Below are positions 7,941 to 42,487 of a DNA stretch of 42,487 bases, in pieces. Origin of the DNA: Chlorobiaceae bacterium (lineage in GTDB: Bacteria; Bacteroidota; Chlorobiia; Chlorobiales; Chlorobiaceae); assembly GCA_013334485.1 (NCBI GenBank), contig JAAXXL010000018.1:1-42487 (forward strand), written 5' to 3'. Numbering within the stretch: position 1 is the stretch's first letter; each line of letters starts with the position of its first letter. The translations under genes were made by a program, and so were the position numbers. Below the pieces are notes generated by a model that did no database searches, was not told where the DNA came from, and saw only the letters and a program-made list of their open reading frames with translations.

Positions 7941-9741
7941 ATTACTCAATACAAAGAAGGGGTGCAGGAGTAAAAGCTGCCTTGTCATCACGTTGGTGCC
8001 AGTGCTGCTTGTTGCTCTGCTTTGTCTCGTTTTGCGTCCGTCACATGCCCTGCCGGATCGTTTTGTGCTCAATATCAAGCTATCGGGTGATCTCAGTGAA
8101 ATTCGTGATGAACAGAGCTCTCTTCCGTTTCTCTCCTCAAGTGCACCGCTTTCGCTGCAGGATCTGCTCTTTATCCTTGATAACGCAGCTTCTGACAAAC
8201 GGGTGAGTGAGGTGCTGCTTGAAATAGGTGGATTGCATACCTCACCTTCAAAAATCAGCGAGTTGCGAAGTGCGATTGAAAAAGTACGCTCGAAGGGGAA
8301 AAAAGTTACCGCTTTTCTGAGCTCGGCCGAAGACAGTGATTACCTTCTGGCAACTGCATGCGACTCGCTTGTTATCGAGCGCGGGGGGTATCTGCTGCTT
8401 GACGGATTGAAAGCGGAAACACTTTTTTATACCTCTCCGCTGGCAAAGATCGGGGTTACGTTTCAGGCGGCCCAGTGGAAGCAGTACAAGAGCGGAATCG
8501 AACCTTTTGTGAGAACCGGGGCGAGCCGGGAATATGTTGAGCAGATCGGTACACTGCTTGCTGAGGTTTACGACGATTATCTCGGATATGCATCGAAGCG
8601 GCGCGGGATGAGTCGCGATTCACTCAGTGGTATTATTGACCGGATTGCCCTTGTTTCTGCTTCGAGAGCCAAATCACTCGGACTGGTTGACGGTGTGGCT
8701 TCGAGCTGGGAGTTGAAACGCGCATTCAACAGAAAAATAACGGGAAAGAAGCCGACAGGAGAGAATGATGCATTGGTTTCCGGTGCTGAGTATCGTGCCG
8801 CTGTTGAGTGGCCGCAGAAGAGTGATGGTGATGAGCGCATTGCCCTGATAACCCTTTCCGGGCCAATTGTGAACTCGGCTGAAGAGAGCGCGCTTGGTAT
8901 GGGAGAGGGGGTAGATGTGGCAAGCCTGAGGCGCTCTCTTGAACGGGCTCTTGATGAGAAGAAGGTCAAGGCTCTGGTGCTGCGCATCGACAGTCCGGGC
9001 GGCGATGCACTTGCATCGGCAGAGATGCTCCAGATGCTTGACTCTGCTGCTGTAAAAAAACCTCTTGTGGTCTCCATGTCGGGTGTTGCCGCTTCCGGCG
9101 GCTATATGGCTGCTCTTGCGGGTAAAACGCTTTTTGCCTCACCGCTTACTATTACCGGTTCGATTGGTGTCTACTCTTTGAAGCCCGAGATCAGTGGCCT
9201 TGTTGCCAAAACAGGCCTTAGTCGTCAAGTGGTTACCAGGGGCCGGCTGGCTGACGCCAATACACCGTTCAAACCGCTTGACACGGAAGCCTACAAGAAA
9301 TTTGTTACAGCTTCAGGCGAGATCTATGATGACTTTGTCGGAAAGGTTGCGGTATCAAGAAAGATGGATGTGACTGCGGTTGACGCTGTTGCCGGTGGAA
9401 GGGTCTGGAGCGGCAGCAGAGCGCTCAAGGCGGGTCTTGTTGACCGGACCGGTGGACTGTTTGATGCCATTCATGCCGCCAAGCTGCTTGCAAAGATGGA
9501 TATGAGTAAAACTCCGGGGATCATGCTTTTCCCTGAAGAGAAGAGCTGGCTGGAGATGCTTTTCCAGGGCAATCAAGCTGATCTGGCCGGCAGGATAAGT
9601 GCGGCACTCAAAAAGCAGCTTATGCAGGAGCTTTTTCCTGTCCGGAAGCTCTCCTCTATGGCGGCTTTCTACGAGAGGTTGATGATCTCTGGCAGGGTGC
9701 GGATGATGGCTATGATGCCGGAAGAGATTGTTATTGAATGA
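7933..9741 (+). CDS. sppA: Signal peptide peptidase SppA, 67-kDa type
   Basis: SppA is a membrane-anchored serine protease that cleaves signal peptides left after secretion. This 602-residue protein is the long, duplicated form. An N-terminal anchor (about 17-35) precedes an N-terminal half with the catalytic lysine K186 in QYKSGIEPF. The C-terminal half has the nucleophile S388 in GVAASGGYM, with the oxyanion segment RIDSPGGDALAS at about 351-362. This matches the Ser/Lys dyad split between halves in the E. coli enzyme. The ATG lies within the end of the oppF-type gene (8-bp overlap), implying coupled translation. The start is supported by the basic n-region before the hydrophobic anchor. 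Confidence 0.95.
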   Translation: MNKLLNTKKGCRSKSCLVITLVPVLLVALLCLVLRPSHALPDRFVLNIKLSGDLSEIRDEQSSLPFLSSSAPLSLQDLLFILDNAASDKRVSEVLLEIGGLHTSPSKISELRSAIEKVRSKGKKVTAFLSSAEDSDYLLATACDSLVIERGGYLLLDGLKAETLFYTSPLAKIGVTFQAAQWKQYKSGIEPFVRTGASREYVEQIGTLLAEVYDDYLGYASKRRGMSRDSLSGIIDRIALVSASRAKSLGLVDGVASSWELKRAFNRKITGKKPTGENDALVSGAEYRAAVEWPQKSDGDERIALITLSGPIVNSAEESALGMGEGVDVASLRRSLERALDEKKVKALVLRIDSPGGDALASAEMLQMLDSAAVKKPLVVSMSGVAASGGYMAALAGKTLFASPLTITGSIGVYSLKPEISGLVAKTGLSRQVVTRGRLADANTPFKPLDTEAYKKFVTASGEIYDDFVGKVAVSRKMDVTAVDAVAGGRVWSGSRALKAGLVDRTGGLFDAIHAAKLLAKMDMSKTPGIMLFPEEKSWLEMLFQGNQADLAGRISAALKKQLMQELFPVRKLSSMAAFYERLMISGRVRMMAMMPEEIVIE

Positions 9742-9913: not shown

Positions 9914-11263
9914 CTAAAATTTGTAGGTCAGGGAGCTTTGTGCACGGAGGGCTTCGGCTGTTGTTGAGTTTTTGTAGCCTGTTCTCCACTCCGAGAGCTG
10001 GAGGCCGAGGATAAGGTTGGGTGTGATTTTGTTGATCACATTGGCGAAGATAGTCCGGTTAACAGTTCGGGCAGTTGCAAGTGCGGGAAGGTCACTGTCC
10101 CGGGGGTCGTCAATGCCACCTCCAAAACTGATTGTGGTTGTGGGGGAGCTTGTGTAGCGTAACGCTGCCCATCCTCCGCTGGAACGGATTTCCCTTAGTG
10201 TTGTGGTGTTGACTCCCTGTCCGATGCCGCCGAGCGAGTCGTCAAGGTTGGTGCCGTTAAAATATTCTCCGGCGAGGAGAAGCTTTTGGTGAAGCGGCAT
10301 GGAGAGTTCAACATTACAGGACCATGAGTCAAGTGTTGTATAATTTCCTGAGGTATTGGTATCCCACTCCTCTTGAGCGTAATGACCTGACAGGGCAATG
10401 GTTGCCGGCTGGTTGTTCACCAACAGGGGGGCAGACCATGCAATGCGACCCTGGAGTGTGGGGATAGCGGCATCCTTTCCGGGATCGGTATTCCATGAGT
10501 CAGCGAAGCTGTTTGTTTCTCCGATGGTTCTTTCTGCTGCTGCGGAAAGTTCAACACGACCTTTTTCTCCGCTTGAAAATCCTTTGGTCAGGCGCAACTG
10601 GGGATGACGGGAGCCGATGTTGCCTGCGTTCCACATCAGGGCTGGATCATCGACAAAAGGTATCAGTGGCGAGTGGAGATCCCATGTCTGGCCAGCAAGA
10701 ATGGTAAAATCAGAGGCAGGCCAGTATGCTTTCATATAGCCGTGACGGAGGCGTGGATTCTGGTTGTTTTCCGTCCCTCCCCCAAAAAAGTCCATTTCAA
10801 TATTGCCCATAATTTTTATCCGATCTGTGTCCGGACCGCTCAGGTTGATGCCGATCCGTGTTGCTCCGGCGGTCATATTCCACTCGGCGTCATTGTTGTT
10901 GAGATTTTCGGGACGAACCCACATTGCGGTATTGCCGGGGTTGATTTTTCCGGAATCGTATGCACCGTCAAGCCGGGCAAAGCCGTAGAGCTGAACCGTT
11001 GCTCCGGAGCCTATGGATACCGTAAGGGGATTGCCGTTTCCAGGTTTGTCTGACGGTGTAGTCGCTGCCCGAGGAGCTGTTGGCGCTGAAGAGGCAGCAT
11101 TGCTTTTGACGAGTGCTTTCAGCTCGGAAAGTTCACGCTCAAGATGGCTGATGCGGGCCTCTATTGCCGTTGTACTTCCGGATGGTTCTGCGGCAAGGCC
11201 GGGTGCAGAGGTAAAAAGTATGCCGGAAAGCAGAGTGTACCGGAGTGTTCCCCGTGCATTCAT
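9914..11263 (-). CDS. Outer-membrane porin
   Basis: This is a predicted outer-membrane beta-barrel channel of 449 residues. A signal peptide (SGILFTSAPGLAA, cut near residue 25) is followed by a short coiled coil (IEARISHLERELSELKALVKS, split here for reading) and a Pro/Ala/Thr-rich linker. A long series of amphipathic strands comes next, starting at VQLYGFARLDGAYDSG. The protein ends in SLTYKF, the terminal aromatic residue recognised by the BAM machinery. Coiled coil plus barrel resembles DcaP-like and related Gram-negative porins. The start MNARGTLRYTLL gives a normal n-region. It is last in the ppc-comM-porin minus-strand series, 109 bp after comM. Its substrate cannot be read from the sequence. 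Confidence 0.85.
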   Translation of the reverse strand: MNARGTLRYTLLSGILFTSAPGLAAEPSGSTTAIEARISHLERELSELKALVKSNAASSAPTAPRAATTPSDKPGNGNPLTVSIGSGATVQLYGFARLDGAYDSGKINPGNTAMWVRPENLNNNDAEWNMTAGATRIGINLSGPDTDRIKIMGNIEMDFFGGGTENNQNPRLRHGYMKAYWPASDFTILAGQTWDLHSPLIPFVDDPALMWNAGNIGSRHPQLRLTKGFSSGEKGRVELSAAAERTIGETNSFADSWNTDPGKDAAIPTLQGRIAWSAPLLVNNQPATIALSGHYAQEEWDTNTSGNYTTLDSWSCNVELSMPLHQKLLLAGEYFNGTNLDDSLGGIGQGVNTTTLREIRSSGGWAALRYTSSPTTTISFGGGIDDPRDSDLPALATARTVNRTIFANVINKITPNLILGLQLSEWRTGYKNSTTAEALRAQSSLTYKF

Positions 11264-35177: not shown

Positions 35178-35444
35178 ATGAAAACAACCCGATTCACAAC
35201 CGAACAGATTATTGGCATTCTGAAAGAAGCAGATGCCGGTATGCCAATCCAAGAACTCTGTCGTAAATATGGCATGAGCGATGTAACACTGTACAATTGG
35301 AAAGCCAAGTATGGCGGTATGGCTGTCAGTGAAGCCCGCAGGCTGAAGGATCTTGAAGATGAAAACCGAAGGCTGAAAAAGCTTGTAGCCGATCAGGCCC
35401 TTGATATTCAAATGCTTAAGGAGATCACCACAAAAAAGTGGTAA
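35178..35444 (+). CDS. IS3-family transposase OrfA
   Basis: The 88-residue protein has an N-terminal helix-turn-helix (about 5-45; IPIQELCRKYGMSDVTLYNW in outline), which binds the terminal repeats. A leucine-zipper-like helix follows (LKDLEDENRRLKKLVADQAL), used for multimerisation. The start follows a strong ribosome-binding site (AAGGAGG at 35161-35167). It ends in TTKKW and TAA just after the A-rich slippery run, and the last bases overlap orfB by 7 bp. On its own OrfA usually acts as a regulator; the OrfAB fusion is the transposase. Confidence 0.95.
   Translation: MKTTRFTTEQIIGILKEADAGMPIQELCRKYGMSDVTLYNWKAKYGGMAVSEARRLKDLEDENRRLKKLVADQALDIQMLKEITTKKW
35432..35438 (+). promoter_or_regulatory. 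Programmed -1 ribosomal frameshift site A_AAA_AAG
   Basis: The heptamer A AAA AAG lies in the exact register needed: in the orfA frame the codons are AAA (35433-35435) and AAG (35436-35438). Slipping back by one base joins orfA to orfB, which opens at 35438. It is embedded in the small palindrome ACCAC-A6-GTGGT, and orfA stops four bases after the site. Confidence 0.9.
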
Positions 35445-36286
35445 CGCCCGAAGCGAAACGCATGGCAGTAAAGCATTTGCAGGAACGTTTCGGGCAGAGT
35501 CGACGGAGAATCTGCAGACTGATCGGTTTATCGACATCAACCTGGCATTATAAAACGAAGCCAAATGAGAACCCACATATACGGGAACGGTTACGCGACA
35601 TAGCCGGAGAAAGACGCCGCTGGGGCTATCGGCAAATACATGAGGTTCTGAGACGAGAAGGCATCATCATCAACCATAAACGAACGGAGAGACTCTATCG
35701 GGAAGAAAGCTTGCAGATACAGATCAAAAGACGCAGGAAAACAGCAGCAACGCTTCGAGTACCGTTGACTTATCCAGAGCAGGCAAACCAGCGTTGGGCA
35801 ATGGATTTCATGAGTGATAATCTTGCTGATGGCAGAAAGATCAGGTTACTGAACATTCTGGAAGTCTTTACGAAAGAAAGTCTGGCAATGGTTGTCGATA
35901 CATCGATAAACGGTACACGGATCAGTCACGTGCTTGACAGGATCGGATGGATGAAAGGATTACCGGACGTCATTACGGTAGATAACGGACCTGAATTCAC
36001 CGGAAAAGTCTTGGATAGCTGGGCCTATAGAAACGATGTTAAACTTGAATTCAGCAGACCCGGAAAACCTTTAAACAATGCATTTATCGAGAGTTTTAAC
36101 CGTACGGTACGAGACGAGTGCTTGAATGATAACTGGTTTTTAAGCCTGGAACATGCCCGGATACTCATAGAAAAATGGAGGGTTGATTACAATACGAACC
36201 GTCCTCACAGTGCTTTGGGCGGGTTAACATCGGCAGAATTTGCCGCTCAGTTTGAGGAGAATTTCCAAGAACAAGTATTACAGTAA
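35438..36286 (+). CDS. IS3-family transposase OrfB (DDE integrase domain)
   Basis: OrfB supplies the catalytic core and is made as an OrfAB fusion by -1 frameshifting. The 282 residues begin with an HTH_21-like segment (RERRRWGYRQIHEVLRREG in outline), followed by the rve integrase fold. The catalytic triad is D in WAMDFMSD, D in TVDNGPEFTG and E in NAFIESFNRTVRDECL. The C-terminal RVDYNTNRPHSALGGLTSAEFA is the classic IS3-family ending. The frame is intact. A GTG at 35438 is the first codon, but independent initiation is doubtful. Confidence 0.95.
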   Translation: MVTPEAKRMAVKHLQERFGQSRRRICRLIGLSTSTWHYKTKPNENPHIRERLRDIAGERRRWGYRQIHEVLRREGIIINHKRTERLYREESLQIQIKRRRKTAATLRVPLTYPEQANQRWAMDFMSDNLADGRKIRLLNILEVFTKESLAMVVDTSINGTRISHVLDRIGWMKGLPDVITVDNGPEFTGKVLDSWAYRNDVKLEFSRPGKPLNNAFIESFNRTVRDECLNDNWFLSLEHARILIEKWRVDYNTNRPHSALGGLTSAEFAAQFEENFQEQVLQ

Positions 36287-37728: not shown

Positions 37729-38226
37729 ATGCGTCTTTTGAAAAAAAATACCGTTTTAATGATTTTATTTCAACTCATTATTTCTTATACCACTGTATTT
37801 GCTGAAACCGCACCAGCTTCAGTACCAAATTATCCAATTGTCCAGAATTCATATTTTACTGATGATTCTGGTAATATACTTATGTTTATTAATGTACTTG
37901 GTGAAGTCAATCATCCGGGTCAGATTGTTGTTCGTGAAAATGCAGATTTTGCGACTCTTTTTTCTCTTACTGGGGGCTTGAAGCCGACAGCTAATCTTAA
38001 AAAAGTTCTCATCTCAAGACAAAATCCTGAAGATAATGGAAATCAGGTTTATAAAATCAATCTAAAGAACTTTTATGGAGAAGGTGACCGCAGTTCTTTT
38101 ATAGCTTTGAAACCTAACGATACGATCATTATTCCGGAAAATAAAGGACTTAATCTTGCTTCTATTTCCAGAATTGCCGCTGTTTTTTTATCAGGAGTAA
38201 GTATCTATAAGATTGTCTCTAAATAA
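37729..38226 (+). CDS. Exported SLBB-domain protein, polysaccharide-export related
   Basis: The 165-residue protein has a signal peptide (cut after VFA, about residue 25). A single SLBB beta-grasp domain follows (about 52-137), with the usual GEVNHPGQIVVRENADFATL and LTGGLKPTANLKKVLISR. A hydrophobic C-terminal helix (about 143-160) ends the protein. SLBB domains are found in Wza-type capsule exporters, but the Poly_export domain that forms most of Wza is missing, so this is not a full exporter. It starts 69 bp before the Wzc-like kinase gene on the same strand, so the two are likely co-transcribed and work at the same envelope complex. Composition is AT-rich. Confidence 0.78.
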   Translation: MRLLKKNTVLMILFQLIISYTTVFAETAPASVPNYPIVQNSYFTDDSGNILMFINVLGEVNHPGQIVVRENADFATLFSLTGGLKPTANLKKVLISRQNPEDNGNQVYKINLKNFYGEGDRSSFIALKPNDTIIIPENKGLNLASISRIAAVFLSGVSIYKIVSK

Positions 38227-38294: not shown

Positions 38295-40622
38295 ATGCGT
38301 AATAATCATGACATAACATTAGAAGAAATATTTTCGATTATCCTTCGACGGAAGTACGGTATTCTTTTGATTCTATTTGTATTTCTTTCGGCATCGCTGT
38401 TTTATCATTATCGTCAAACACCGGAATACCGTGCTGTCTCAATAATGATGATTAATTCAACAAAGGGACAGGGGGATCTACTTTCTTCAGTTATCGGTAT
38501 TTCGGAGGCAGACAATAAAGCGGTTAGAAAGGATGTTGAATTACTCAAATCGATGCCAATAGCTCAACTTGTGGTGAAGGAACTTTATAATAGTAGTATT
38601 AAGGATTCACTTGAGTTTTTCGGAAAAAGACGTTATATCTCTCCAGTCGATCGCAAAATTGGAAAGTTTTTATTCATCAAAAAGGATAAAGAAAAAACTA
38701 AAAATAAACTTGCTTTTGATGATGAGTTACGTGGTTATGCGGTTAAGCTAAATCACAGAATAATTGTGGAAAGTATTAGAGAAACTAATATTTTGAAAGT
38801 ATCAGTTTTAAGCCCTTTTCCTGATGAAGCAACATTTTTAACAAATACGCTTTGTCGTGTTTATAAAGAAGCTGATATAGCTCGCAACTCAGAAAAGTAC
38901 TCTCAAGCTCGTAAAATTATTGCGGATATGCTTGAAGATCAGAAAAAAAAGGTTGTTGTAGCAGATGATGAACTATCAAAATATATGGAGTTGCATAAAA
39001 TCTATGAGATGTCGGGAAATATGCAACAGCTTCTTGAGAAGGTTATTACAACTGATGCAAAATATAACGATATTCTTGTTGAATATAATATTGCAAAAAA
39101 TCACCTTGATTTCCTTGAAAAAAAACTCTCGGAATCAGATAAGGCCATCAGTATGCGTATCGCTGAGAGCGCCAATGCGCAACTTGGTTCCATTATTGAT
39201 GAAATGCGTAAACGTGAGCGGGAATATGTCAATTTTGCTCGTGAAAAAGGGTTTAATAATTCTGAAGTCAAGGCAATGCGTCAACGATTGGATGTTATAA
39301 AAACAAGATATGAACATTTATATCGCAGTAAAATAGCAGGGGAAATTGGCTATGCCGGACGCACTCAAAAGTACGGCTTCAACTTAATATCAGAAAAGTT
39401 ACAGTTTGAGCAGAAACTGAATGACTTGAGCTTTACATCAAAAGAGTATGGTCGTTTGAAACAATACTATGAAAGCCAGTTACTTACACTTCCCCGAAAA
39501 CAGCAGGATTATGCAAAACTCTTGCGTGAGCGTGAAGTTGTAAATAAAACCTATTTTTATCTTAAGGAAAAATACGATGAAACTCGACTACTTCTTGGTT
39601 CTGAAGTTGGTAGTATATCACTTGTCGGGACTGCCTTCCGTCCTTTTTCACCTGATAAGCCGGACATAAGCAAAAGTTTTATGACAGGATTTATTCTTGG
39701 TTGTATATTTGCCGGGATCTATTCTGTTATCGCAGAAAAACTGGACGATAGTATAAAGGATAAACGGTTTTTCAAGGATTTAGAGTTAAGAGTGCTTGCG
39801 GTTATTCCATTATTGCCAAATAATGGAGATGGTAGTTTTTCTGGTAATATACGAGCGCATTTGAATCGTATTATCAATTTAAAAAATGGTGTTTTAGGTA
39901 AGAGAATATTTAACAAAATATTTTATAGTAATCATTATGATGGTAAACGGGACGACAGGTCTTTCATTCCGAAGATAACAGATCAAATGTCCTCAGTGTT
40001 TTCTGAGAGTTTTCGAACCCTTCGAACAGCCCTTGATTATTCTAAAGTAGACTCCCCCCTAAAATCAATAGTCATTTCCGGGGCGGCGATGTCTGAAGGA
40101 AAGTCAACTGTTTGTGCCAATCTTGGTATGGCTATTGCCATTACCGGAAAGAAAACACTTATTATTGATTGTGATCTTCGACGAGCATCACAGCATGAAA
40201 TATTCAATTGCTCACGTCAGGATGGGCTGACAGATTATTTGTTTAGTCAACATCAAATGATTGGGGATTTATATATCAAACCTACTCATGTAGAGCACCT
40301 TTTTCTGCTTACTGCTGGTAATAAAATTCCAAATGGAAATGATATTCTAAGTTCACCTAAAATGTTTAAACTGATCAAAGAGTTTGAATCAAGATTTGAC
40401 ATGATACTGATTGACAGTCCACCATTTTTTTTAAGCGATGTAGCCATGCTGCTTCGATCTGTTGACGGTGTTCTTTTGTCTGCTCGCCTTTATTTTACCA
40501 GCCGGAAGCACTTTGAAGAGTTTGTTGCGGATTCATTTATCAGGGAGCATTTACTTGGAGTTGCACTTGTCGCATCTAATGAACATGCCCTTGATTCTTA
40601 TAGTGCCTATGACGAGTATTGA
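38295..40622 (+). CDS. Wzz/Wzc-type polysaccharide co-polymerase with tyrosine-kinase domain
   Basis: This inner-membrane protein (775 residues) would control the assembly and chain length of a surface polysaccharide. The N-terminal Wzz domain has TM1 at about 20-38. A long periplasmic coiled-coil region follows, and TM2 lies at 461-480 after the GNVR-type LVGTAFRPFSPDKPD segment. The cytoplasmic BY-kinase has Walker A GAAMSEGKST at 596-605, Walker A' LIIDCDLRRA at 622-631 and Walker B MILIDSPP at 703-710. The tyrosine tail is short: Y769, Y772 and Y775 in DSYSAYDEY. No phosphatase, flippase, polymerase or glycosyltransferase gene is in the window. The gene is AT-rich like its surroundings. 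Confidence 0.92.
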   Translation: MRNNHDITLEEIFSIILRRKYGILLILFVFLSASLFYHYRQTPEYRAVSIMMINSTKGQGDLLSSVIGISEADNKAVRKDVELLKSMPIAQLVVKELYNSSIKDSLEFFGKRRYISPVDRKIGKFLFIKKDKEKTKNKLAFDDELRGYAVKLNHRIIVESIRETNILKVSVLSPFPDEATFLTNTLCRVYKEADIARNSEKYSQARKIIADMLEDQKKKVVVADDELSKYMELHKIYEMSGNMQQLLEKVITTDAKYNDILVEYNIAKNHLDFLEKKLSESDKAISMRIAESANAQLGSIIDEMRKREREYVNFAREKGFNNSEVKAMRQRLDVIKTRYEHLYRSKIAGEIGYAGRTQKYGFNLISEKLQFEQKLNDLSFTSKEYGRLKQYYESQLLTLPRKQQDYAKLLREREVVNKTYFYLKEKYDETRLLLGSEVGSISLVGTAFRPFSPDKPDISKSFMTGFILGCIFAGIYSVIAEKLDDSIKDKRFFKDLELRVLAVIPLLPNNGDGSFSGNIRAHLNRIINLKNGVLGKRIFNKIFYSNHYDGKRDDRSFIPKITDQMSSVFSESFRTLRTALDYSKVDSPLKSIVISGAAMSEGKSTVCANLGMAIAITGKKTLIIDCDLRRASQHEIFNCSRQDGLTDYLFSQHQMIGDLYIKPTHVEHLFLLTAGNKIPNGNDILSSPKMFKLIKEFESRFDMILIDSPPFFLSDVAMLLRSVDGVLLSARLYFTSRKHFEEFVADSFIREHLLGVALVASNEHALDSYSAYDEY

Positions 40623-41144: not shown

Positions 41145-42002
41145 ATGAAGTTATTTGTTTATGTTATCTCTTTATTCGTTATCGGACTACAATCCATGAG
41201 CCCTCAGGTTATCTTGGCTTCTGATAACACGTCTAAAACATATTTAAATGAGATGTATGAATGGATAAAAAAGGATGCTGATTCCAATGTATCCACAACA
41301 GCTATAACTCCCGCGTATATTCTCAATAGTCATAGTAAATCAATAAGCGTACCGACGGCATGGGGTGCGTCAAATAACTATATTTTCTTCGGTGGTGGTG
41401 GAAGTATACCTGCACCGTATATGTCAGGGCCAGATGGAGCAATGGAGTTAGGGGTTGGCGTCGGTGATTCACAAAAAACAGTTGGAACTCAAATAACTTT
41501 AGTTTCGTTAGATCTTTCTGGTTGGAAACGATATGCACTCTATCTGCATCTATCAAAAGATATAAGTGATGTTGCCGCACTTGGTGCTGGTGTGGAGAAT
41601 GTCTCTCTTACTGGAGGCTCTGATTCAGATAAAAACTTTTATGTAGTTTACAGCCAAGCTTTAAAGAGTGAGCCTTTTATCAATGATAATACTGGTCAGT
41701 CTAAATTTTATTTCACAGTTGGTGCTGGTTCTAATAGGTTTGGAAAGAAAAGTCCCTCAGATATTCAATCTGGAAAAGGAGCTCACGGTACCTATGTATT
41801 TGGCAGCGTTGCTTATGAGGTGGCCGGAGCCTGTAACATTATAGCTGCCTGGAATGGAATAAATCTCAGCACGGGTATATCGAAAACATTCTGGATCAAC
41901 GACATACCGATTTCGACAATCCTTGGTGCAGCGGATCTTACATCTAACTCGGGAAGTGGAGTCCGTTGTACATTCGGTTTTGGAACTGGTTTCCCGTTTT
42001 AA
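41145..42002 (+). CDS. Exported protein of unknown family, probably an outer-membrane beta structure
   Basis: The 285-residue protein has a signal peptide (hydrophobic 4-19, likely cut after VILA at about 25). The mature part is rich in G, S and aromatic residues and shows alternating beta-strand patterns, such as VGTQITLVSLDLSGWKRYAL, ALYLHLSKDISD and TYVFGSVAYEV. The C-terminus GFGTGFPF ends in an aromatic residue after a strand, as in outer-membrane proteins. Two cysteines (ACNIIAAW and VRCTFGF) could pair. I do not recognise the family. The start is the first ATG; no ribosome-binding site is visible, which is odd. It is 227 bp upstream of another exported-protein gene. Confidence 0.72.
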   Translation: MKLFVYVISLFVIGLQSMSPQVILASDNTSKTYLNEMYEWIKKDADSNVSTTAITPAYILNSHSKSISVPTAWGASNNYIFFGGGGSIPAPYMSGPDGAMELGVGVGDSQKTVGTQITLVSLDLSGWKRYALYLHLSKDISDVAALGAGVENVSLTGGSDSDKNFYVVYSQALKSEPFINDNTGQSKFYFTVGAGSNRFGKKSPSDIQSGKGAHGTYVFGSVAYEVAGACNIIAAWNGINLSTGISKTFWINDIPISTILGAADLTSNSGSGVRCTFGFGTGFPF

Positions 42003-42088
42003 GGATTTTTGGATATTTCCAAAATGCTTTGTATGATGAACGAGGATAGATAAAAATATTAAATTGAAACTCAGTTGTTTACTCTGAT

Positions 42089-42118
42089 TTGTATTCCATG
42101 CATATAATCAGATAAATT
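42089..42118 (+). promoter_or_regulatory. Candidate promoter for the Gly-rich protein gene
   Basis: TTGTAT (42089-42094), an 18-bp spacer and a perfect TATAAT (42113-42118) form a reasonable sigma-70-type promoter. It lies 111 bp upstream of the ATG at 42230. Confidence 0.45.
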
Positions 42119-42229
42119 TATGAGCAATCTCAGGCATCATTATCACGAATAACGTGTACGTCAAATTCAGAAATCTGCCTGGATACTACCTAACTATTTA
42201 ACAAATATACCCTAACTGACGGAGCAAAT

Positions 42230-42487
42230 ATGAAAAAAAGTATTATAAGAGTTGTTTTTTATACGTTAATAGCATCTGGATACTCAGCACCTTTGCTTGG
42301 TGCCTATAATCATGGGAACATGTCTGATTCTCACTGTGGCGGAGGTTCCGGTCATGGTAACGGGCATCACGATGGGGGTGGTCATCATGATGGTGGAAAC
42401 AACGGCGGCGGCGGAAACCACGGCGGCGGCGGAAACAACGGCGGTGGCGGAAACAATGGCGGTGGCGGAAACAACGGCGGCGGCGGA
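42230..42487 (+). CDS. Secreted Gly/Asn/His-rich repeat protein (3' end outside window)
   Basis: The ATG at 42230 follows a good ribosome-binding site (GGAG at 42221-42224), and the frame is open to the window edge (86 codons). A signal peptide comes first (MKKSIIRVVFYTLIASGYSA, cut near residue 20-25). A His- and Gly-rich stretch follows (SHCGGGSGHGNGHHDGGG, HHDGG). Five perfect or near-perfect six-residue units NNGGGG (one is NHGGGG) run to the edge. Such glycine-rich repeats form flexible or fibre-like surface material; the histidines could bind metals. I do not recognise a named family. The repeat is GC-rich, unlike the AT-rich flanks, because glycine codons are GGC/GGT/GGA. Confidence 0.8.
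   Translation, partial: MKKSIIRVVFYTLIASGYSAPLLGAYNHGNMSDSHCGGGSGHGNGHHDGGGHHDGGNNGGGGNHGGGGNNGGGGNNGGGGNNGGGG
42398..42487 (+). repeat. 18-bp coding tandem repeat (five units, continues past the edge)
   Basis: Units start at 42398, 42416, 42434, 42452 and 42470. The consensus is AACAACGGCGGCGGCGGA, with only CAC for AAC, AAT for AAC and GGT for GGC changes. Changes are in frame-neutral 18-bp steps, so loss or gain of units alters protein length without a frameshift. Confidence 0.92.

Follow-up and report, generated by a model that had tools for sequence, protein, structure and literature searches.

What is the role of the short secreted protein with a tandem repeat that is encoded at the very end of this Chlorobiaceae contig, and with which other proteins might it act? 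The window analysed here (42,487 bases) is the entire contig G000:C93 of an assembly of 130 contigs and 2.59 Mb. On its forward strand, an open frame at 42230-42487 begins with an ATG, preceded by GGAG five bases upstream, and runs for 86 aa without a stop. Its translation consists, in this order, of a signal peptide (approximately residues 1-25, 42230-42304, with an approximate cleavage site placed by eye and by alignment), the stretch YNHGNMSD, a His/Gly/Asp-rich stretch (residues 34-56, 42329-42397) and the units NNGGGG, NHGGGG and three further copies of NNGGGG, which form a tandem array of five 18-bp units up to the contig end (42398-42487). TRF places the 18-bp array at 42395-42487 with 5.2 copies, 92% matches and a score of 158. 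Codons six positions apart are identical in 18 of 24 pairs, compared to 12.2 expected from shuffles within amino acids (p = 0.001). Since synonymous codons keep the six-codon phase above chance, the units arose by DNA duplication and not by convergence at the amino acid level. An earlier note on this DNA had placed and described the frame correctly (signal peptide, His/Gly stretch, NNGGGG-type units); its view of a secreted low-complexity product is supported for the window protein by signal peptide and repeat tail, and its reading of the near-identical DNA units as duplications is borne out by the codon phase.

As the window is a whole contig, the gene is cut by an assembly break inside the repeat and not by the window edge. 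The repeat was found nowhere else in the 130 contigs outside the window's own locus, and a search of the same genome for its other side (with the repeat pattern, the 488-bp end, the L003 partner and a WbpM-like next gene) likewise returned only the window locus. Because no other contig carries the repeat, the C-terminus of the protein is missing from the assembly. The closest relative, locus L054 (= L014), encodes a complete protein of 113 aa with the same GHHGG/NNGGG tail, which ends in GGGGGGRGGR without any further domain; the C-terminal domain that the earlier note had expected thus has no counterpart in this relative.

The gene is preceded by an outer-membrane beta-barrel gene (41145-42002, forward strand) coding for 285 aa without a Pfam or NCBIfam match. 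The barrel of L054 has an N-terminal insertion similar to that of the window barrel (YLxxMYxWIxKD, by eye). Further upstream on the same strand, we found genes for a Wzc-like polysaccharide co-polymerase/tyrosine autokinase (38295-40622; Wzz, GNVR and AAA_31 domains) and a short Wza-like SLBB-domain polysaccharide export protein (37729-38226). The gene order is repeated in G001 around a relative of the window gene, with the C-terminus of Wzc, a 260-aa homologue of the barrel, the small secreted protein and a gene named WbpM-like by eye. A transposase frame (rve, HTH_21; 35438-36286, forward strand) separates the exopolysaccharide genes of the window from metabolic genes, and a DcaP-like outer-membrane protein is encoded at 9914-11263 on the reverse strand (PF19577, E = 1.4e-6). 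Through its upstream barrel, its exopolysaccharide neighbours and a short N-terminal NxSD tag, all absent from the earlier note, the window protein is part of a family that spans three bacterial lineages.

With 19 barrel homologues as queries, we retrieved 33 records of Chlorobium or other Chlorobiaceae, mostly lake metagenome assemblies, and six of Rhodobacteraceae. The window itself probably stems from a green sulfur bacterium of the genus Chlorobium. Overall, relatives of the barrel occupy 59 non-redundant loci, which belong to Chlorobiaceae, another Bacteroidota family (f6) and Rhodobacteraceae, and at 58 of these a tagged secreted partner is the next gene after the barrel (Chlorobiaceae 39/40, f6 13/13, Rhodobacteraceae 6/6). 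The sole miss is L070, where a barrel scoring 228 bits stands without a partner. These loci, mostly from metagenome bins with one genome per species, comprise a set of 47 (the window, L038-L076, L034, L095-L098, L103 and L107; 46 paired) and those of 13 f6 genomes, one of which (L095) was already in the set. Redundant copies (e.g. L099 = L061, L080 = L042, L106 = L070, L147 = L095) and the contig-end barrel fragments of G077, G085 and G086:C53 were excluded; in G077 and G086:C53 a tagged partner adjoins the fragment. Of the 43 loci measured, 42 have a gap of -50 to +34 bp between barrel and partner, with start codons chosen by script; the gap of 227 bp in the window (42003-42229) is unusually long. 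Within the window's genus, the barrel family (260-285 aa) is present in 30 of 65 genomes, and with only one carrier among 395 genomes of the class of G157 it has to be regarded as patchy. A plasmid search with a Rhodobacteraceae barrel gave no match. In Candidatus Chlorobium antarcticum (L069 = L021, 543-1325), an in-frame TAA interrupts the barrel gene and the tagged partner is open. The pair is thus patchily shared by the three lineages, and in Chlorobiaceae it lies mostly at exopolysaccharide loci.

What do the partners have in common? Besides the signal peptide, the only part conserved across them is a tag immediately behind it, which reads N-M-S-D in the window protein (residues 30-33, 42317-42328). 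The pattern [N/R]-x-S-[D/N] directly follows the signal peptide in 51 of 58 partners, and S or T followed by D or N occurs at this position in all 58; the six Rhodobacteraceae partners all read RDSDG. As a control, [NR].S[DN] was found near the signal peptide in only 3 of 147 other signal-peptide-like ORFs of the same loci, one of the three (in L034) being part of the barrel/partner module itself. For the partners, signal peptides were called with a simple rule on hydrophobicity and by visual inspection, for the control ORFs by script alone. In the 47-locus set, automatic detection found the motif in 39 of 46 partners, or in 41 with L044 and L107, whose hydrophobic core was misplaced by the script and which were read by eye. 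Eleven tags in total were assigned by eye, including those of L034 and L074, for which the script had picked an earlier SD; the partners of L051 and L056 were also read in this way. When the 65 genomes of the window's genus were searched with a profile of signal peptide and tag, 30 matches appeared, of which 29 adjoin a barrel or a fragment of one. The remaining match is weak (E = 0.0014) and belongs to a 694-aa frame that by eye resembles a processing protease; four barrel-bearing genomes gave no profile match and their partners were readable by eye. The same profile had no matches in 301 f6 genomes, which is uninformative on this family as the profile was built from signal peptides of Chlorobium and lacked an f6 positive control.

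Beyond the tag, the partners have almost nothing in common. Over 171 pairs, mean identity is 58% for the barrel, compared to 39% for the partner's head and 18% for its tail, and between species the tails differ widely in both length and type. Most Bacteroidota partners carry a low-complexity tail, which may be collagen-like GATGQT, PPAPVA, APT, PT, GGQGQ, GGSVGG or NNGGGG, or built of PPIP repeats in f6. Non-repetitive partners also exist, e.g. those of L008, with a coiled-coil-like end, and L022, and the Rhodobacteraceae partners are not of low complexity. At L026 and L027 the barrels are 86% identical, and the tails show 24% identity and different repeat types; judged from such sequence comparisons, Bacteroidota tails can change completely between close relatives. 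The 26 partners searched against Pfam and NCBIfam shared no family, and their scattered weak matches (GltJ, TonB etc.) track low complexity. The collagen family PF01391 was matched by one of the 26 (E = 3.8e-13), which also matches the SclA, SclB and Lcl adhesins in NCBIfam; since this is not the window protein, we rejected its assignment to collagen-like (Gly-X-Y) surface proteins. A structural model of the Rhodobacteraceae partner (A4, 6 sequences) reached a pLDDT of 52 and a pTM of 0.41 and is too poor for use. In f6, the partners of L141, L144 and L146 carry long (IPPVPP)n or (IPTPPP)n tails after NxSDW.

We modelled the barrel on a relative of 47% identity to the window barrel (L010) with AlphaFold2. 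The model, built from a shallow alignment of 19 sequences, shows 12 strands after the signal helix (pLDDT 73, pTM 0.68). Among the VIA matches listed, the best are FapF (Z 17.2), the NalP translocator (Z 17.1) and KdgM (4pr7; Z 16.6, rmsd 2.2 over 158 residues); with NanC and VhGalP, KdgM belongs to a group of porins with Z 15.8-16.6, and Foldseek ranks VhGalP first. These fold matches, all of them outer-membrane barrels, are at approximately 6-11% identity, and since porins and autotransporter translocators share the fold, it cannot choose between export and porin function. In a Pfam scan of the 19 barrels at E <= 1, no POTRA, porin or other transporter family was matched, and the 19 have no Pfam family in common.

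The closest working analogy is the Fap system. PMC5557850 describes FapF/FapC as an outer-membrane barrel with a dedicated Sec-exported substrate. Here, too, a 12-stranded outer-membrane barrel, similar to FapF at the level of fold only, would be combined with such a substrate, although no family relation is detectable and the two-gene pair differs in the N-terminal NxSD tag and the non-conserved tail of the partner. Moreover, the first strand of the L010 model lies at residue 54 and is separated from the signal helix by nothing but low-confidence residues (20-45); the stretch of about 30 residues that the Chlorobium barrel has here, behind its signal peptide, is too short to accommodate FapF's coiled coil and helical plug. 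Lacking this N-terminal periplasmic part, the pair cannot be identified with the Fap system. As regards a FapC-type amyloid substrate, the 26 partners scanned share no Pfam family, one of them matching collagen. The translocator of NalP likewise has a 12-stranded barrel of similar fold, but in our pair barrel and secreted polypeptide are encoded by separate genes, barrel first, at all 58 paired loci, and the L054 partner ends without a barrel, so that a type V autotransporter was rejected. In two-partner secretion, TpsB has POTRA domains and a 16-stranded barrel. The 12 strands of the model and the absence of POTRA matches in the 19 barrels (Pfam, E <= 1) led us to reject this system as well. 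Porins of the KdgM/NanC type resemble the barrel in small size and 12-stranded fold, but the 19 barrels match no porin family at E <= 1 and have a nearly obligate tagged partner. In the open-licence PMC literature, searched by title or abstract start, we found no paper on the barrel/partner pair, and neither protein has a name in Pfam or NCBIfam (for the barrel, NCBIfam was run with the window protein alone).

The window pair follows SLBB and Wzc-like genes as known from Wza/Wzc exopolysaccharide export loci, and a homologue of Wzc, SLBB, Wza, WecA, WbpM or CpsB lies in the flank of 25 of 39 Chlorobiaceae loci, or 28 of 39 when looser sugar-metabolism seeds are added; some of the seeds were taken from these very loci, and several contigs are short. 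With Wzz-domain genes numbering 0 to 4 per genome in the window's genus, such clustering is not expected by chance. No seed matched in the first 34 kb of the window. In contrast to known export loci, of which neither barrel nor partner is a component to our knowledge, the barrel is lacking in 35 of the 65 genomes examined from the genus, and elsewhere the pair exists without exopolysaccharide genes: none of the six Rhodobacteraceae loci and L095, which constitute the check outside Chlorobiaceae, has a clear exopolysaccharide neighbour, the sole seed match in these seven being a 26% match to AMP-ligase in the flank of L074. The exopolysaccharide link is therefore a habit of Chlorobiaceae and not of the pair as such. 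The named carriers at L042, L047, L051, L056, L061, L065 and L067 include Chlorobium of lakes L227, L304 and L442 and strain N1, which belong to iron-rich-lake or iron-oxidising lineages.

Following this argumentation, we propose that the window gene encodes the secreted member of an outer-membrane pair, in which the tag docks the partner to its barrel for export or display, a reading to which we assign a probability of roughly 50%. Gene 1 (41145-42002) would yield the barrel, with 12 strands as predicted from its relative, and gene 2 (from 42230 onward) a putatively Sec-exported polypeptide whose mature form starts with the [N/R]-x-S-[D/N] tag and continues, in Chlorobium, into a mostly disordered low-complexity tail. 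In the periplasm, the tag would be recognised by its own barrel; such recognition would account for a barrel that almost never occurs without its partner and for a partner whose tag alone is kept. The barrel might then pass the unfolded tail through to the cell exterior, in the manner of FapF with FapC, or it might hold the tag while the tail projects from the surface; the freedom of the tail fits either passage of an unfolded chain or display. If only the tag must be kept, repeat slippage could alter the tail freely. In Chlorobiaceae, where the pair usually sits among Wza/Wzc-type genes, the tail would thus probably come to lie within or beneath the polysaccharide coat, where it would form a protein brush or part of the matrix. 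Pairing, tag, predicted fold, locus setting and tail turnover come directly from the data, whereas binding between the two proteins, passage of the tail across the outer membrane and a matrix role are what we infer. Points against export or display are the 227-bp gap in the window, the unpaired barrel of L070, the Rhodobacteraceae partners without low complexity and the lack of a general exopolysaccharide link.

But could the barrel serve the polysaccharide instead of the partner? It might be a sugar-passing or sugar-binding protein of the exopolysaccharide system, similar to KdgM/NanC or Wzi, with the tagged protein as a small regulator whose tag enters the barrel to gate or plug it and whose tail merely prevents escape. 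KdgM, NanC and VhGalP among the best fold matches, the neighbours of 25/39 Chlorobiaceae loci and the conservation of the tag but not of the tail would all agree with this; Wzi is absent from the best 50 fold matches listed. We nevertheless regard it as unlikely, as no clear exopolysaccharide neighbour occurs in 7/7 loci outside Chlorobiaceae and a plug would neither need tails of up to approximately 200 aa nor be expected to tolerate their full replacement.

The tag itself could also be read as a modification site. N-x-S is a sequon and is present in 45 of 58 partners, so that these might be glycoproteins linked to the exopolysaccharide of the Chlorobiaceae loci via a glycosylation or polymer-attachment site, with the barrel as a mere operon neighbour. 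However, the Rhodobacteraceae tags (RDSD in 6/6) contain no Asn and still adjoin a barrel, and S (57/58) followed by D (54/58) is better kept than N. We therefore consider this improbable, although a variant with O-linked Ser might hold.

A further option is provided by the sulfur globules of green sulfur bacteria, on which the partner might act as a coat protein, standing in for the Gly-rich Sgp of purple sulfur bacteria. According to PMC6398422, the globules of Chlorobaculum tepidum have a coat of protein and polysaccharide, and no SGP homologues are known in this organism; secreted Gly/Asn-rich proteins at exopolysaccharide loci would fit. We give little credence to this idea, since just 30 of the genus's 65 genomes possess the barrel and the pair is also found in f6 and Rhodobacteraceae. 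The NCBIfam matches of 26 partners include no Sgp family. Very improbable, finally, is the suggestion of the earlier note that His clusters make this a metal-binding secreted protein or fibre: the GHHDGG clusters and the His/Gly/Asp-rich stretch are common only to the window and L054, which alone among 46 partners have at least four tail His, so that metal binding was rejected as a general function of the family and would at most be a speciality of this subclade.

If the tag indeed targets the partner to the barrel, this combination of one barrel and one tag would rank among the simplest display systems known at the outer membrane. It is a more tentative proposal, and somewhat doubtful in so specific a form, that the pair represents an undescribed export or display system, in which a single small barrel recognises its substrate by a four-residue tag alone and the disordered cargo (collagen-like, Pro-rich or Gly/Asn-rich) is swappable. 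As evolution has already swapped the tails many times, such a system, if true, would lend itself readily to testing and might find use in surface display. The extracellular sulfur globules and the consortia of green sulfur bacteria depend on surface chemistry, and the partners would be concrete candidates for surface proteins of these organisms. Even with a different mechanism, a pair that is conserved across three lineages and for which the searched libraries contain no family model merits a name.

Two loci depart from the arrangement of one barrel and one singly tagged partner. At L034 (1523-2125, forward strand; genome G073), barrel and partner are followed by a second tagged gene, coding for 201 aa with signal peptide and SNISD; its product has no Pfam match at 0.001, and its SWGCIN stretch presumably resembles L,D-transpeptidases. 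The partner of L042 (approximately 8802-9404, forward strand) repeats the tag four times in a 12-aa unit, SNMSDASSTGTL, which suggests several tags in one chain.
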